64,000 bases of DNA from an uncultured Clostridia bacterium (lineage in GTDB: Bacteria > Bacillota > Clostridia > UMGS1883): NCBI GenBank assembly GCA_947629005.1, contig CANRCD010000005.1, positions 1-64,000 of the forward strand, read 5' to 3'. Below the pieces are notes generated by a model that searched no databases, was not told the DNA's origin, and saw only the letters and a list, made by a program, of their open reading frames with translations. This document shows positions 13 to 15,088 of this stretch, piece by piece (within the stretch, counting starts at the first letter, position 1; the number at the start of each line of letters is the position of its first letter). The position numbers and the translations under genes were made by a program.

Positions 13-2967
13 ATGAACAGTAAGAAAATTTTGGCTATGATAGTGGCCGTCGCCATGGTCGTAGCCATCGTTCCCGCGTTCACGCTGACAGCCGCCGCGG
101 TGGCAGGAGAACAAAGTATTTCAGCAACCAATGCCTACAGTATGAATAGCTCCGATGTTAAGGAAGACGACCTTTCAGTAATCGGAGAAAATTCTATGAG
201 CAAACGAATTACTTTGATCGGGTTTGACGTTCCTAATCTTGAGGAAAACGAAATTATAACCAAGGCTGAGCTTGTTCTTACAGTTAAGGACGTAACTAAC
301 GGCGATTCAACTATTACCGTGGACGACGCTTCGACTATATGGACGAAAAAGAGCTCTACCATAACTTGGCAAGAATCAGGCTCTGATATTTCGCTCCCTT
401 CCGTGACAGAGTTTGGTGTAACGTCCGGCGATAAGGGCAAAACCATAGTAATAGACGTAACCGACTATGTTGCAACAAAAGCAGGGGATTTTGCTTCTTT
501 TAGATTGAGAAACTTTACGCCAAAATCCGGCAACAAATCCAATATTGTCAAGTTTTACAACACATCTGACGATGCACATGCCCCGAAGCTTAACATTTCC
601 ATAAAAGAAAAGGCCTCCATAACTGTCAATTTCAAGACAAAGTCCGGCGAACCTCTTAATACGGAAATGCTTCAAGGATATGTAGGCGACACATATACCT
701 ACACAAATTCGGTAAACGACAACTATGCTATAATTGAAAAAGACGGAAGCGATGGTAATTTTGGATACATAGCCGAGATTCTCGAGTCTAACCCTACGGA
801 GGTAGTTTCCGGCGGGATCGAGGTCGATGTTATCGTTGCACCAAAATATAAGCTTAAATCAAAGAACCTATTGCCGGACGGCGAAGACGGGTTGGATCAG
901 TATACCGTCGGCAGCGGTACAGCAGGGAATTATACAACACAGATTCTGAGTGCGGGCGGCAATCTCAGAAAGACTGATGAAAAAGCTCATTCCGGAAGCA
1001 ATTCTATAAAAACCACAAACAATGGATGGGGTGCCGGCGATAGCTTGTGGTCATGGTATGGTTCAAATTCTCTTGTTATGTACAGAGAAGTAAATGCCAA
1101 TTCAAAATATTACTTTGCCGGTTCGTTCTTCCCCGGCGCCGCCAGAGGAACACAGGCAACCATTGCAACTCTTGCCGCCGCTAATGACCCTACATCCATG
1201 CAGGGAATTGAAGACGGAGCCGACGAGCCCGGCGGCGGAAAAATATTAAGCAATGGTGGCGTTACTTCATGGAATGGTCTTGAGCTAACAAAGTCATCTG
1301 GTACCGGAACCAACAATAATAAATCATGGCCGGGCAATGAGGACGGTGGGAAACTCTTCCCCAACATGACCGGTAAGTGGAATCAACTTGAATATGAGCT
1401 TACTACGGATGCAAATTCCAAAGGATTTATGGCGGCGTTCTACTATACGCTCGATTGCGGAACAAGCTTCTTTGATGATTTCATGCTCTACGAAGTGGAA
1501 GATTATGCTGATGAGCTAGAAAGTATTGAAAAAGCAAATATAACCGTAATCGAGGGCAATGATCCCATTCTTCCCAAAAAACTTACAGGGCATACTAAGA
1601 ACGGGCTTGCCGTTAATGTTGACATTGATTGGGACCTTGGCTCCGTTGATTTTACTAATGCAAATAGCCCTGTAACGGTGAACGGCCATGCACACGACGA
1701 AACGGGCGTTGCTGCCGAGGCGACTGTAACAGTCCTTCCGAATACCTTTGAAATGGGAAATATTACATCTGTTTCTTGCAAGCAAGGCGAATATGCAGGA
1801 AAAGCGCATAAATTCCCGAAGAATATTGTTTTCGCGAAAGATTTCAGCGTGGAGTTTGACTATAAAGTGAACAGTATAGCTGACGCGTCTATTCAGGTCT
1901 GCAAGGATGGCGCGATATTTGGAGATGGCGCTGTGGCCATTGGCATAGGCGGCGCTCTCCTTAATGTGACCTCAGGTAAGGGACTTACCGACAGCAGCAG
2001 AGTTTCAACCAATTTGTTTACAGTCGCTGTTGGCGAGCAGTACCGTGTACTCATTAACATTAAAACAGAAGAAAAAATGTTTAATGTAACCGTTACTAAG
2101 CCCGATGGCACAAGCTACTCCACTGAAGACGTTTACTTCAGAAATTGCGGCAAGCATGATGTTATAAACACCATAGGCGCACTCTCCAATTCGGAATCTG
2201 GTAACACTGCGGACGGCGATATTGAGATGCTCAACATAAAGATTTATGACGCCAACTACAAGGAGTTTAAGGCTCTTGCTCCCGAGCTTGCTTGGACTGG
2301 AGAGGACTTTGCCATAAACTTCCTGTTTGGCGACGATGCTGATGATGGAACTTATACCATTAATGTAACCAAGAAGAATGCCGAAACCAAGGAATTTACC
2401 GAAACTGTTAACAACACAGCGACGGTTGAGGTAAACGATACTGTGAAGGGCTTTACACTTAACGGAAAGAGCAATGACATTTATAAGGCCGAAGCTGTAA
2501 ATGGCGATGTTGTTACTGCTGATATGACTAACGGCGTAAGCGTATACGGCCTTGTTATGAAGGCTCTCAGCGAGCTCACCCTTGCTGACGGCGACAAAAT
2601 ACTTGCCGAACAGATCGACGCTGTCAATAAGGTTGTAAACGATGGAGGTCTTTACATCAAGGACGGCGCTCTTCCTATCGAGGCTGTTGGCATTCTAAGC
2701 TATGATTCGGCTGAAAACACTGTCACCATCAATGATAAGCTGTTCAATGCCGGCTTGAAGTTTGAAATGGTTAAGTACACCAGCGGAGAAGATGTAGATA
2801 AGGATGCAACAATTGAGGATGCTGGCAAGACGGCAAAGCTTAGCTCCGCCATGTCTGCCGGTCTTGACGAGATTTTCCTCAGCGAGATCGAGTTTGTATT
2901 TGAACCCGGCGAGGTAGCGGAGGAAGCCGACGAAGCCGGTACTATTGACTTCGTTGAGGAGATATAA
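13..2967 (+). CDS. Large secreted modular carbohydrate-binding-like surface protein (cassette A)
   Basis: The 984-residue protein starts with a clear signal peptide (MNSKKILAMIV..., cleavage probably near residue 32 after a TAAAVA-like stretch). What follows looks like a chain of binding modules: a DNRLRE/CBM96-like beta domain (about 35-200), a MucBP-like stretch (about 205-280), a CBM4/9-like jelly roll ending in DDFMLYEV (about 285-500), a bacterial Ig-like Big_4 domain (about 510-575), a LamG/CBM-like domain (about 580-755) and a C-terminal module (about 760-984). That last module contains SVYGLVMKA, AEQIDAVN and NDGGLY and ends in an acidic tail, FVEEI. I see no catalytic motif, LPXTG or SLH anchor. 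The C-terminal module recurs in the inverted partial gene at 12965-13972. A 53-residue peptide gene follows 14 nt downstream and is surely co-transcribed. Base composition is AT-richer than in the neighbours. The promoter lies outside the window. Domain names are by pattern; the function (glycan binding at the surface) is inferred. Confidence 0.8.
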   Translation: MNSKKILAMIVAVAMVVAIVPAFTLTAAAVAGEQSISATNAYSMNSSDVKEDDLSVIGENSMSKRITLIGFDVPNLEENEIITKAELVLTVKDVTNGDSTITVDDASTIWTKKSSTITWQESGSDISLPSVTEFGVTSGDKGKTIVIDVTDYVATKAGDFASFRLRNFTPKSGNKSNIVKFYNTSDDAHAPKLNISIKEKASITVNFKTKSGEPLNTEMLQGYVGDTYTYTNSVNDNYAIIEKDGSDGNFGYIAEILESNPTEVVSGGIEVDVIVAPKYKLKSKNLLPDGEDGLDQYTVGSGTAGNYTTQILSAGGNLRKTDEKAHSGSNSIKTTNNGWGAGDSLWSWYGSNSLVMYREVNANSKYYFAGSFFPGAARGTQATIATLAAANDPTSMQGIEDGADEPGGGKILSNGGVTSWNGLELTKSSGTGTNNNKSWPGNEDGGKLFPNMTGKWNQLEYELTTDANSKGFMAAFYYTLDCGTSFFDDFMLYEVEDYADELESIEKANITVIEGNDPILPKKLTGHTKNGLAVNVDIDWDLGSVDFTNANSPVTVNGHAHDETGVAAEATVTVLPNTFEMGNITSVSCKQGEYAGKAHKFPKNIVFAKDFSVEFDYKVNSIADASIQVCKDGAIFGDGAVAIGIGGALLNVTSGKGLTDSSRVSTNLFTVAVGEQYRVLINIKTEEKMFNVTVTKPDGTSYSTEDVYFRNCGKHDVINTIGALSNSESGNTADGDIEMLNIKIYDANYKEFKALAPELAWTGEDFAINFLFGDDADDGTYTINVTKKNAETKEFTETVNNTATVEVNDTVKGFTLNGKSNDIYKAEAVNGDVVTADMTNGVSVYGLVMKALSELTLADGDKILAEQIDAVNKVVNDGGLYIKDGALPIEAVGILSYDSAENTVTINDKLFNAGLKFEMVKYTSGEDVDKDATIEDAGKTAKLSSAMSAGLDEIFLSEIEFVFEPGEVAEEADEAGTIDFVEEI

Positions 2968-2981
2968 GGAGGGCGAAGACT

Positions 2982-3143
2982 ATGAAGAAATTTATTGTTC
3001 CCGAGATCAACGTCGTTAATCTCGACCAGCAGGACGCGATTATGACTTCCCCCGGTATTACAGATAAGCGCGCGCTTACAACTGTCATTACTGATGAAAC
3101 GAGCGCACAGTATAATATGTGGAAAGGCTATGACGCCGAGTAA
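2982..3143 (+). CDS. 53-residue conserved peptide, cassette A
   Basis: A 53-codon gene begins with ATG behind a strong ribosome site (AAGGAGG at 2967-2973), 14 nt after the surface-protein stop. The product starts MKKFIVPEINVV, has DAIMTSPG in the middle and ends QYNMWKGYDAE. It is hydrophilic with no signal peptide, membrane segment or cysteine. A homologue of identical length lies on the other strand at 12789-12950; 33 of 53 positions are the same, which argues strongly that the gene is real. It is followed directly by a terminator. Short MKKF-x-x-PE...TS peptides next to secreted proteins resemble small Clostridia hypothetical proteins I have seen, but I know of no established function. 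Confidence 0.82.
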   Translation: MKKFIVPEINVVNLDQQDAIMTSPGITDKRALTTVITDETSAQYNMWKGYDAE

Positions 3144-3156
3144 TCACAAATCAGCG

Positions 3157-3180
3157 AAGGGCCCCTTTTGGGGCCCTTTT
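3157..3180 (+). terminator. Rho-independent terminator of cassette A
   Basis: A 9-bp perfect stem (AAGGGCCCC / GGGGCCCTT) with loop TTTT is followed by a short T run, 14 nt after the 53-residue peptide stop. The same stem preceded by CAGCG is found, inverted, after the homologous peptide gene at 12789. Confidence 0.88.
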
Positions 3181-12636: not shown

Positions 12637-12750
12637 CGCGGCGCTGTGGCCTTTATGCGCTAACAATGGCAAACCCTTCACAGTATGGGTGTGCATTGCG
12701 CTCCCTTCGGATGAGGGCCTAAACGCAATATTTACAATAATGAACCACAC

Positions 12751-12775
12751 AAAAAGGGCCCCGAAAGGGGCCCTT
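12751..12775 (-). terminator. Rho-independent terminator of cassette B
   Basis: A 9-bp stem (AAGGGCCCC / GGGGCCCTT read on the minus strand) with a 4-nt loop and a T run. It is a near copy of the cassette A terminator in opposite orientation, sharing the CAGCGAAGGGCCCC run. Confidence 0.86.
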
Positions 12776-12788
12776 CGCTGTTTTGTGG

Positions 12789-12950
12789 TTATTCGGCGTT
12801 AAAGCCTTTCCACATCTCGTATTGCGCTGAAGTGTCATCTGCAACGACCTTGGTAAATGTGTTTTTATCCGTAACGCCAAGGGAATTCATAATCACATCA
12901 GCCTGACCGAGTTCAACTGTGTTGACCTCGGGAGCAATAAATTTCTTCAT
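12789..12950 (-). CDS. 53-residue conserved peptide, cassette B
   Basis: This is the homologue of the peptide at 2982-3143: same length, 33 of 53 residues identical, including MKKFI, PE, TDK, TSAQY and MWKG. The ATG lies behind AAGGAGG in a spacer nearly identical to that of cassette A and only 14 nt after the stop of the truncated surface-protein gene. It has no cysteine, signal peptide or membrane segment. Conservation of the peptide, its spacing and its terminator, while the large gene has diverged or broken, suggests the peptide is under selection. Function is not known. Confidence 0.8.
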   Translation of the reverse strand: MKKFIAPEVNTVELGQADVIMNSLGVTDKNTFTKVVADDTSAQYEMWKGFNAE

Positions 12951-12964
12951 GGTTTTCGCCCTCC

Positions 12965-13972
12965 TTATATCTCTTCAACAAAGTCTACCAAACCGGTCTC
13001 GTCGGCTATTTTGGATACCTCGTCGGGCTCAAAAACAAATTCGATTTCCTCAAGGAATATATCCTCAAGTTCCTCCATATCGCCTGAGGTAATGGTTATC
13101 GTTACTGACTTGCCGTCATCGGCGACCACTGCGGTAGCATTAGCTATGGTGGTTATTGTTTTGGCATTGGCAAAGGATAAACCGGCATTGCTGGTAATAT
13201 CCGTAATCGTTACGGTCAGGGTGTTTTTTGCGCTGGATTTAAGAGTAAGAACATCTTTTACCTCGTCGGTGAGCCTATACTTGAGAGTATCCTCAGCACT
13301 ATCGTCAGCTATCAAATACAGGCCACCGTCATTAAGCACGGTGTTGATCGCATCAATCTGCTCGGCTGCAATGATATCTCCCTCGCCGATGCTGGCAATA
13401 GCCCTCATAACAAGGCCGTAGACACTGGCCTTAGTGCTGTCATTCCCGCCTTTAACCCTTGCGGAGTAAATCGCGTTGGAACTTGCGGGCTTAACGGCAA
13501 CGCCGTTAACAGAGCCGCTTGCGACAACTTCTGCATTGGCGGCAGCGCTTTCTGCATTGGCGGCGTTGAATACGCTTACGCTATATGTAGTGTCGGTCTT
13601 AGCGTTTTCAAACAGGAAATCAACGGTGAAAGCATTCTCGTTCCAGCCAAGAGCAGGAATAAGATCTACGGGCGCAGGAATGAGACTGATGTCGTCTGTA
13701 AGGCCCCAAAGGATGTTGTGGCCATTGCAAAGCAACACGACCTTATTGTTGCCTTTGGCCTTCTCGGTTATTTTTGCAGTGTCTACATCGGTAATATGAT
13801 TTCCAAAGGTTTTTTGGTTGCTATCGTTTGTGCCTTTGCCGGTAGTAATGATATTGTTTTGTATGGCCTTGTATACTGCGGCTCTATCGGCTATATCAAG
13901 AGCGCTAAACTCTTCAAGACTAATTGCCGCGATATAGGTGTGGCTTGCGCCATTTCCTTGATAGCGATTCAA
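12965..13972 (-). CDS. 5'-truncated surface-protein tail carrying the cassette C-terminal module
   Basis: The 335-residue frame has no ATG near its 5' end; the nearest start is TTG at 13972, with no ribosome site, and the open frame runs to a stop at 14015-14017. The sequence just before the TTG (FSSEIIAGL) reads as normal protein, so the 5' end looks cut off. The C-terminal 200 residues match the last module of the 984-residue protein (SVYGLVMRA, AEQIDAIN, NDGGLY, IFLEEIEFVFEP, FVEEI). No signal peptide remains, so export of the present product is unlikely. It precedes the 53-residue peptide by 14 nt. I read it as the tail half of a gene whose head now lies inverted at 14039-15088. Confidence 0.65.
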   Translation of the reverse strand: MNRYQGNGASHTYIAAISLEEFSALDIADRAAVYKAIQNNIITTGKGTNDSNQKTFGNHITDVDTAKITEKAKGNNKVVLLCNGHNILWGLTDDISLIPAPVDLIPALGWNENAFTVDFLFENAKTDTTYSVSVFNAANAESAAANAEVVASGSVNGVAVKPASSNAIYSARVKGGNDSTKASVYGLVMRAIASIGEGDIIAAEQIDAINTVLNDGGLYLIADDSAEDTLKYRLTDEVKDVLTLKSSAKNTLTVTITDITSNAGLSFANAKTITTIANATAVVADDGKSVTITITSGDMEELEDIFLEEIEFVFEPDEVSKIADETGLVDFVEEI

Positions 13973-14038
13973 ACCAGCGATTATTTCTGACGAAAAACCG
14001 GCCTTGCGGAAACATTAAGAAGGAGGTTAATTTTAACT

Positions 14039-15088
14039 ATGAACAGGACAAAAATTTTGGCTATGATTATGGCATTTGCTATTGTCATGGTCGTCGTATT
14101 TGCTATCGGAATTGTTGCCGTAGCAAGCGAAAATCTCGCTTCGTATGAAGGACTAGGCCCAGAGAACAGCTGGTTTGCCACAGCCAATCAAAACAACAAC
14201 AATAAAAATACTAACCTTGGCCAAAATTTCAGCGGACATCTAAAAATAGAATTCGACCTAATGTACCCTGAAACGCCAGACAGCAGTACACTTATTGCAT
14301 TCTCAAAAGACAACGGCACATTCGGCAATGCGGAAATATCTATCCAAGGCTGAAATTTAAATAATGTAAATTTTCATTTAACAAGTGATACGTATGCCGG
14401 ATCGTTTGCAATTGAACTTAACCATATGTACCATCTAGTTTTGGAAACCACCGTTCCCGAAAACACATATAGTGCTCAAGTAACGGACGCCATTACGGGC
14501 GAGGCTGTTATGATAACGCATTCTGGCGACGGAGAAGCTGTTACAAAGCTTGAAAGTATTTCCTACAGAAATAATGGTATAGATGCTATCAACTCTATGG
14601 TTATGCTTCAGAACGACGGTCGTAATGATTCGTCTAATAACCGAGCTAGACTTACGAATCTTAAAATTTATGAGTTTGACGTACCCTCCAAGGAAATTAC
14701 GGTAAACTACACGTGCGACGGCCAATTGGTCGGCACAGCAAAGGTACACGTTAAATCTGACGCGAATGAGTATTCAGTAGCAAAAAATGCTTTGGTGAAC
14801 GGTACGAACGCAAAATATTATATTGAATCGGAACAGACCATCACTATTGAATGCGACACTGTTACCGTGCTGGTTAAATCACTTGGCAGTTGTTCTAAAT
14901 CCGTGATAACAAGCTTTGGGACGCTGACGCTGGCATTGGCAACGGCGCCAACGGCACAAACAGTTTCTGTGCCTTCAACTGGGGTGTGCTTGGCACTTAT
15001 GACAGAATGGGGGGTTGCCATTGTTGACGTTCCCTCTATTGGAGCCGAGGATGTGTTCAATATTATCGCGATTAATGCAGGCAACTGA
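14039..15088 (+). pseudogene. Broken surface-protein head with decayed signal peptide
   Basis: A gene start behind AAGGAGG (14031-14037 region) encodes MNRTKILAMIM..., clearly related to the start of the 984-residue protein but with the cleavage region altered. Translation stops at an in-frame TGA (14351-14353). After it the same frame continues with sequence resembling residues 600-755 of the intact protein (RLTNLKIYEF), then a MucBP-like stretch (KEITVNYTCDGQLVGTAK). From about 14890 to 15005 another frame reads better (DNKLWDADAGIGNG, FCAFNWGVLGTYDR), returning to the first frame at a run of six G. One stop and two compensating frameshifts point to decay, or to sequencing error in part. 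No C-terminal module follows. Confidence 0.68.

Follow-up and report, generated by a model that had tools for sequence, protein, structure and literature searches.

Why should the gene of a large secreted protein be followed directly by a second cistron for a short peptide that has no signal peptide of its own? This question is raised twice by the window, i.e., the whole 64,000-nucleotide stretch of contig CANRCD010000005.1 analysed here, which comes from an uncultured Clostridia bacterium. The two peptide ORFs, each of 53 aa, share 33 of 53 residues (62%), and their match in the genome search (E 2.1e-18) is far above chance. The ORF list and the genome search agree with the preliminary description on position, length and identity, and the absence of a signal peptide that it had noted was confirmed. 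The features of the two units are as follows.

13 to 2967, forward strand: large secreted partner of 984 aa, with a signal peptide (from sequence) and a DNRLRE domain (NF033679, E 5.5e-11)
2287 to 2964, forward strand: C-terminal domain (CTD) of the first partner, with a conserved acidic tail at its end (profile E 2.2e-46; this sequence is itself a row of the profile)
2966 to 2972, forward strand: Shine-Dalgarno sequence AAGGAGG, overlapping the TAA stop codon of the partner (read from the sequence)
2982 to 3143, forward strand: 53-aa peptide, first copy (ORF; genome profile search)
2982 to 3044, forward strand: leader-like part of the first copy, codons 1-21, with the FxxPx[IV] motif (column conservation over 78 members and class-wide matches; putative border)
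3045 to 3140, forward strand: putative core, codons 22-53, consisting of the variable part and the Trp-containing end
3156 to 3180, forward strand: terminator-like (intrinsic) hairpin 3' of the first peptide (coordinates read from the sequence)
12744 to 12789, reverse strand: terminator-like hairpin 3' of the second peptide (hairpin rule)
12789 to 12950, reverse strand: 53-aa peptide, second copy (ORF; genome search)
12888 to 12950, reverse strand: leader-like part of the second peptide (column conservation; putative border)
12960 to 12966, reverse strand: Shine-Dalgarno sequence for the second peptide, again overlapping the partner's stop (read from the sequence)
12965 to 13972, reverse strand: second partner ORF, which has 349 open codons and gives 335 aa from a TTG start (contains the CTD; no start resembling a signal peptide was found)
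12968 to 13651, reverse strand: CTD of the second partner (profile E 1.7e-43)

On the opposite strand beyond the second partner ORF lie a fragment with a signal peptide (14039-14353) and another fragment (14426-15088), and the region 12965-15088 resembles a broken or rearranged paralogue pair.

The two peptides belong to a family that is widespread in the genus, whose relatives in the GTDB collection are, by name, uncultured Clostridia bacteria from rabbit (Lapin) assemblies. The profile search of eight genus genomes returned 92 matches. Three of these would have fused the C-terminal half of the peptide to large proteins (frames of 888-1011 aa, E 0.01-0.23), but they are internal stretches of one enzyme-like protein family and were taken as chance, so that the count is reduced to 89 short ORFs, distributed over G000 to G007 in order as 11, 7, 7, 12, 1, 9, 24 and 18. 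Member length varies between about 50 and 64 aa, the gaps falling in the middle of the peptide, and the equal, gap-free length stressed in the preliminary description is therefore not general. Its fixed ends and variable middle do hold within the genus, where alignment columns F5, P8 and W52 are invariant in all 78 aligned members, M22 is kept in 72 and D42 in 73; class-wide, only the N-terminal part is shared. Its view that the peptide is a real product has been strengthened, because the comparison of synonymous and non-synonymous changes that it had proposed indicates purifying selection at the amino-acid level, with a pooled dN/dS of about 0.23 over 62 non-independent pairs, a value biased downward by the choice of pairs of at least 60% identity. 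The window pair stands at 0.33 and one G007 pair at 1.13. At loci L068 and L069 (G006:C5:13188 and C1:192399), two identical peptides lie far apart and differ by synonymous changes only.

Of 81 genus copies, 80 have a Shine-Dalgarno sequence within 25 nt upstream, and 46 of 81 have, by the rule used, a terminator-like hairpin within 160 nt downstream. The window peptides matched nothing in Pfam or NCBIfam at E up to 10, and the 78 members together with nine class peptides and one peptide of sister genus g4 gave scattered weak matches; no Pfam or NCBIfam family fits the peptide family. The AF2 model of the peptide alone (mean pLDDT 66, pTM 0.18) offered no fold to search, and the plasmid search with the consensus leader as query found nothing. 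The PDB profile search with the peptides returned two meaningless matches (E 1.7-1.8).

The pairing with a partner is nearly complete, and the preliminary assignment of the peptide to the large protein holds well beyond the window: 86 of 89 peptides start within 24 nt after a CTD-bearing ORF. Among 82 copies, 81 have their start between -11 and +19 nt from the end of an ORF of 349 codons or more, the one without a partner ORF directly before it being G000:C7:76304. The remaining seven comprise five that start 14 to 24 nt after a partner ORF and two at contig ends, one of which still shows the last six residues of the partner. The lone peptide (locus L180, G000:C7:76304-76447) has a Shine-Dalgarno sequence and lies about 2 kb behind a complete unit. 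A signal-peptide-like start was found in 62 of 68 complete partners (13 truncated partners excluded), compared with 35 of the 160 other ORFs at these loci; this count uses a strict rule, which replaced a lax one that flagged 28 of 42 long window ORFs and was discarded. The recognised domains of the 41 partners scanned are mostly lectin- and glycosidase-like (Laminin_G_3 in 17, Big_4 in seven, BNR_4 in three, and single cases of GH43, rhamnosidase and CBM).

What the partners have in common is the CTD of about 215 residues. The AF2 model of the first partner's CTD has a mean pLDDT of 85.8, with about 50-60 in the acidic tail, and the domain is predicted to be an FN3-like sandwich followed by a small alpha/beta part and a conserved acidic tail of low confidence. 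Among the fold matches listed, the FN3-like first half alone resembles solved folds (VIA, with Z reaching 9.2 over 84 residues; Z values in the middle range are common). No Pfam family is common to the CTDs, the best matches covering three of 80 members. Over 72 units, the similarity of the peptide cores tracks that of the CTDs (Mantel r 0.67) more closely than that of the 260 aa before the CTD in these proteins (r 0.31), a contrast partly expected because the CTD is nearest to the peptide and is the only generally alignable part. Four complete CTD genes, in G000, G002, G004 and G005, have no family peptide behind them (L167 at G000:C3:59380-60021, L166, L168 and L169), and three further CTD matches are partial or at contig ends.

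Related peptides occur far outside the genus. In sister genus g4, secreted ORFs of 235-276 codons are followed at 18-21 nt by MKKYNKPEI...WSW peptides, and longer ORFs by other YxxP peptides. A 12-row profile searched against 391 Clostridia genomes (E up to 0.02 per genome) found 57 short ORFs outside the window's own family, in 28 genomes of 15 families; since about eight chance matches are expected over 391 genomes, a few of the 57 could be spurious. The pattern [YFW]xxPx[ILVMA] occurs within the first 16 residues in 54 of the 57, a count that is not independent because YxxP is part of the search profile. The secreted partner is independent of the profile: in 47 of the 57 the start lies -5 to 45 nt from the end of a preceding ORF of 150 aa or longer, and the class partners are secretion-like in 33 of 38 complete cases (nine truncated ones excluded) against 33 of 117 background ORFs (Fisher p 1.5e-10). 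The other ten include three with a partner at 77-90 nt, two at contig starts and five with none in view. Among control short ORFs of the same loci, a small set made up partly of real genes, nine of 29 closely follow an ORF, which in four cases is flagged by the lax signal rule. The part common to the class is the start, MKKYxKPE[IV]xxxxFxxEDVITTS; tails and partner C-termini differ from their counterparts in the genus. As judged from the sequences, peptide tail and partner change with lineage and the N-terminus alone is shared. The aromatic residue of the motif is Tyr in 30 of the first 33 relatives examined outside the family, and Phe in 78 of 78 genus members.

Such a start resembles the leaders that are held by RREs, small PqqD-type adapter proteins. 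A PF05402 match above the cut-off is present in all eight genus genomes, and in all eight a PqqD-type stand-alone RRE lies directly before a gene that we take, from its sequence, to be ispG. The best PDB matches of this RRE, PbaB1 (E 0.045) and TfuB1 (E 0.077), are both RREs. The copy of G006, on contig C17, has 89 aa. Discrete lasso RREs mostly bind [Y/W]xxPx[L/V/I/A/F/Y], and the leaders of the linear polyphosphorylated peptides (LPP) use YxxP (PMC13381572). The genus FxxPx[IV] and the relatives' YxxPx[IV] fit this binding motif, except that the genus Phe lies outside the published [Y/W] set. In LppB, Asn33 fixes the Pro kink of the leader and Asp70 its Tyr hydroxyl (PMC13381572). When aligned through PbaB1, the eight ispG-linked RREs retain Asn33, with Asp70 replaced by Ala and Phe74 by Tyr. 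Asp is found at the Asp70 position in 14 other non-OPT RREs of the family (both G005:C2 proteins counted), and Arg in two OPT-transporter-linked RREs. The leader's Tyr has thus given way to Phe on the same branch on which the RRE has lost the Asp that binds the hydroxyl. No other evidence here is as specific as this match of residues in two aligned families, but it amounts to a single event on a single branch. Ile or Val occupies leader position -2 in some lasso precursors (PMC10368454), and the genus peptides would have [VI]M at that position if the leader ended at M22, which is a lead only.

The presence of an RRE alone is weak evidence, because PqqD-type proteins occur in 20 of 21 family genomes, including some in which no peptide was detected. 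Also, no RRE of this type was found in G010, G012 and G020, which are sister-genus genomes with YxxPx[I] peptides: G010 has only a weak match with a length like that of the OPT-linked type (a label that rests on length), G012 has a weak match of OPT length and another inside a 463-aa frame, and G020, whose genome is 60% complete, has no RRE match. A third PqqD-type protein stands in a conserved row with oligopeptide-transporter-like and dipeptidase-like genes at L229, L240, L241 and L242, with Arg at the Asp70 position in the two that were aligned. At L238:6172-8640 (G005:C2), a 385-aa protein has a PqqD domain at its start and a kinase-like P-loop, possibly an RRE-kinase fusion, and 0.9 kb downstream of it a 149-aa ORF starts with a YxxP-type leader.

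Candidates for processing come from the sister genera, where a small S24-like/signal-peptidase-like gene adjoins the RRE in G009, G014 and G019. The order in G009 is RRE, NTP_transf_5, a P-loop protein and a Peptidase_S24-like protein; the P-loop protein, which has no Pfam match, is putatively HprK-like. Within the same G009 region (L245:6633-12192, G009:C62), the LPP-like gene set is followed by a 980-aa secreted protein with SLH-like repeats. Relatives of the RRE-linked peptidase occur in six of the eight genus genomes and were not found in G002 and G006, despite the 24 peptides of G006. At five genus loci they stand between what are presumably ftsH-like and aluminium-resistance-like genes; G001 shows only the latter. 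Both the RRE genes and the SpI-like genes of the genus sit apart from the peptide units, and no maturation enzyme adjoins the peptide at any unit read, as the preliminary description had observed for the window. Its dismissal of a RiPP-type precursor was premature, given the RRE-binding-like start and an RRE elsewhere in each of the eight genomes; its interpretation as a whole is partly supported. The lasso B2 leader peptidase (Transglut_core3) was found in none of the eight genus genomes. Peptidase_C39, which marks the exporters of double-glycine leader peptides, matched in two of the eight, the window's genome being among the six without a match, and a SPASM protein, as used for sactipeptides and other SPASM radical SAM RiPPs, is present in seven, with none in the window's genome. 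Units scattered at 1 to 24 per genome, together with the lack of an adjoining enzyme, point to capture and any processing in trans.

Several known systems share features with these units. The LPP are made by Bacillota, with a leader YxxPxV held by a discrete RRE that is linked to an SpI-like peptidase, an HprK-like kinase and an NTP transferase, and the roles of LPP-like peptides are stated to be unknown (PMC13381572). Short precursors with a conserved N-terminus and a variable C-terminus, and a comparable gene set in G009, recall the LPP as described there. Unlike the LPP motif given there (YxxPxVLxHQxIxFETxxS), neither the genus nor the class set has conserved HQ or FET columns, and the peptide genes follow secreted-protein genes in many copies per genome instead of lying in a biosynthetic cluster. 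The [Y/W]xxPx[L/V/I..] leader motif and a discrete RRE are also features of lasso peptides, paeninodin-type and others, and we assume a resemblance between the genus leader and that of paeninodin in particular; however, the B2 peptidase is absent from the eight genomes, Phe replaces Tyr or Trp, and there is no cluster at the loci. The Trp close to the C-terminus, which often has a Lys nearby (WKG, WSGK), recalls the tryglysin/streptide RaS-RiPPs, but several subfamilies end in Trp without Lys, no radical SAM enzyme was noticed at the loci read, and the tryglysin family NF050036 gave only weak profile matches in three of 78 members (best E 0.021). Some secreted proteins carry C-terminal sorting domains that are served by dedicated machinery, and the conserved CTD with its acidic tail on diverse secreted proteins is similar to these, although no Pfam family matches more than three of 80 CTD members. 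In the literature searched, the leader string DVITTSG had no match, and the titles and abstract openings on RiPPs, orphan precursors, RREs and small proteins mentioned nothing of this peptide-partner pairing.

From these results, we tentatively propose that the peptides are dispersed RRE-guided precursors, processed in trans and working with the secreted partner, a reading to which we give somewhat less than an even chance. Each locus would be a two-gene unit, with the secreted protein first and a short leader-plus-core precursor as the second cistron. The first 22 or so residues would be the leader, captured in trans by the stand-alone RRE beside ispG, and the rest, with its Trp near the end in the genus, would be the acting part. 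Processing would in most species probably be done by a small peptidase like the RRE-linked one of the sister genus, and the released part, modified or not, may be exported and act with the partner's CTD at the cell surface, e.g., as a bound ligand, cap or tag.

An account with no RRE at all would make the peptide an unmodified dedicated partner: it would serve as a chaperone or subunit, either in the cytoplasm or exported together with the protein, and would bind the CTD before or during export, for example at the disordered acidic tail. The pairing in 86 of 89 copies, with translation directly after the partner, is what such an account expects, as are cores that track the CTD (r 0.67), a CTD tail that is conserved yet predicted to be disordered, and very short partners of 367-370 aa (G001, G003 and G006), which suggest that the peptide depends on the CTD. 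Across the class, however, partner and peptide tail vary and only the N-terminal RRE-like motif is constant, the reverse of what a partner-binding chaperone predicts; moreover, several CTD proteins have no peptide, and while the CTD is expected to be extracellular, the peptide lacks a signal peptide. We consider this account possible but rather doubtful. The same constant start would suit a released peptide signal or bacteriocin made from scattered precursors, with the secreted protein a mere operon neighbour, and the variable remainder, the many paralogues per genome and the tryglysin matches in three of 78 members can be read in that way. But these matches are at chance level for 78 queries, nearly all copies are tied to one kind of partner and in the genus to one domain, and at the loci read we noticed neither a receptor nor an immunity gene or exporter, and a free product of this kind is thus unlikely.

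The close coupling of the two genes could also mean that only translation of the downstream ORF counts and its product does not, as a cis-acting regulatory or translational by-product. The Shine-Dalgarno sequence overlaps the stop codon of the partner in 46 of 81 copies by the pattern used, which would fit. The constraint acts on amino acids, however, with Phe, Pro and Trp at both ends conserved in 78 of 78 members, and the spacing between peptide and partner varies in phase, so that this explanation appears very improbable. RRE-guided handling in trans is the best-supported mechanism, though we hold it with a confidence that stops a little short of even.

A more specific form of the RRE-guided reading is a class-wide system of Clostridia in which many secreted proteins are each made together with a guided peptide of their own; shared enzymes would process this peptide, and it would then be attached to or loaded onto the CTD, so that surface proteins would bear an exchangeable, gene-encoded peptide. 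We think this improbable as it stands; if true, the RiPP leader and RRE machinery would be used for protein display and not for a free natural product. RiPP precursors are usually sought in the neighbourhood of their enzymes. The precursor-like peptides described here are dispersed through the genome, each following one of many lectin- and glycosidase-like secreted proteins, and they extend to 15 families beyond the window's own. Even without the RRE link, a conserved pair of secreted protein and peptide that is absent from Pfam and NCBIfam as searched merits annotation. If the RRE does hold these peptides, the roles of cluster-less stand-alone RREs and of LPP-like peptides would become testable, and gut Clostridia would have an overlooked in-trans pathway tied to their surface proteins.
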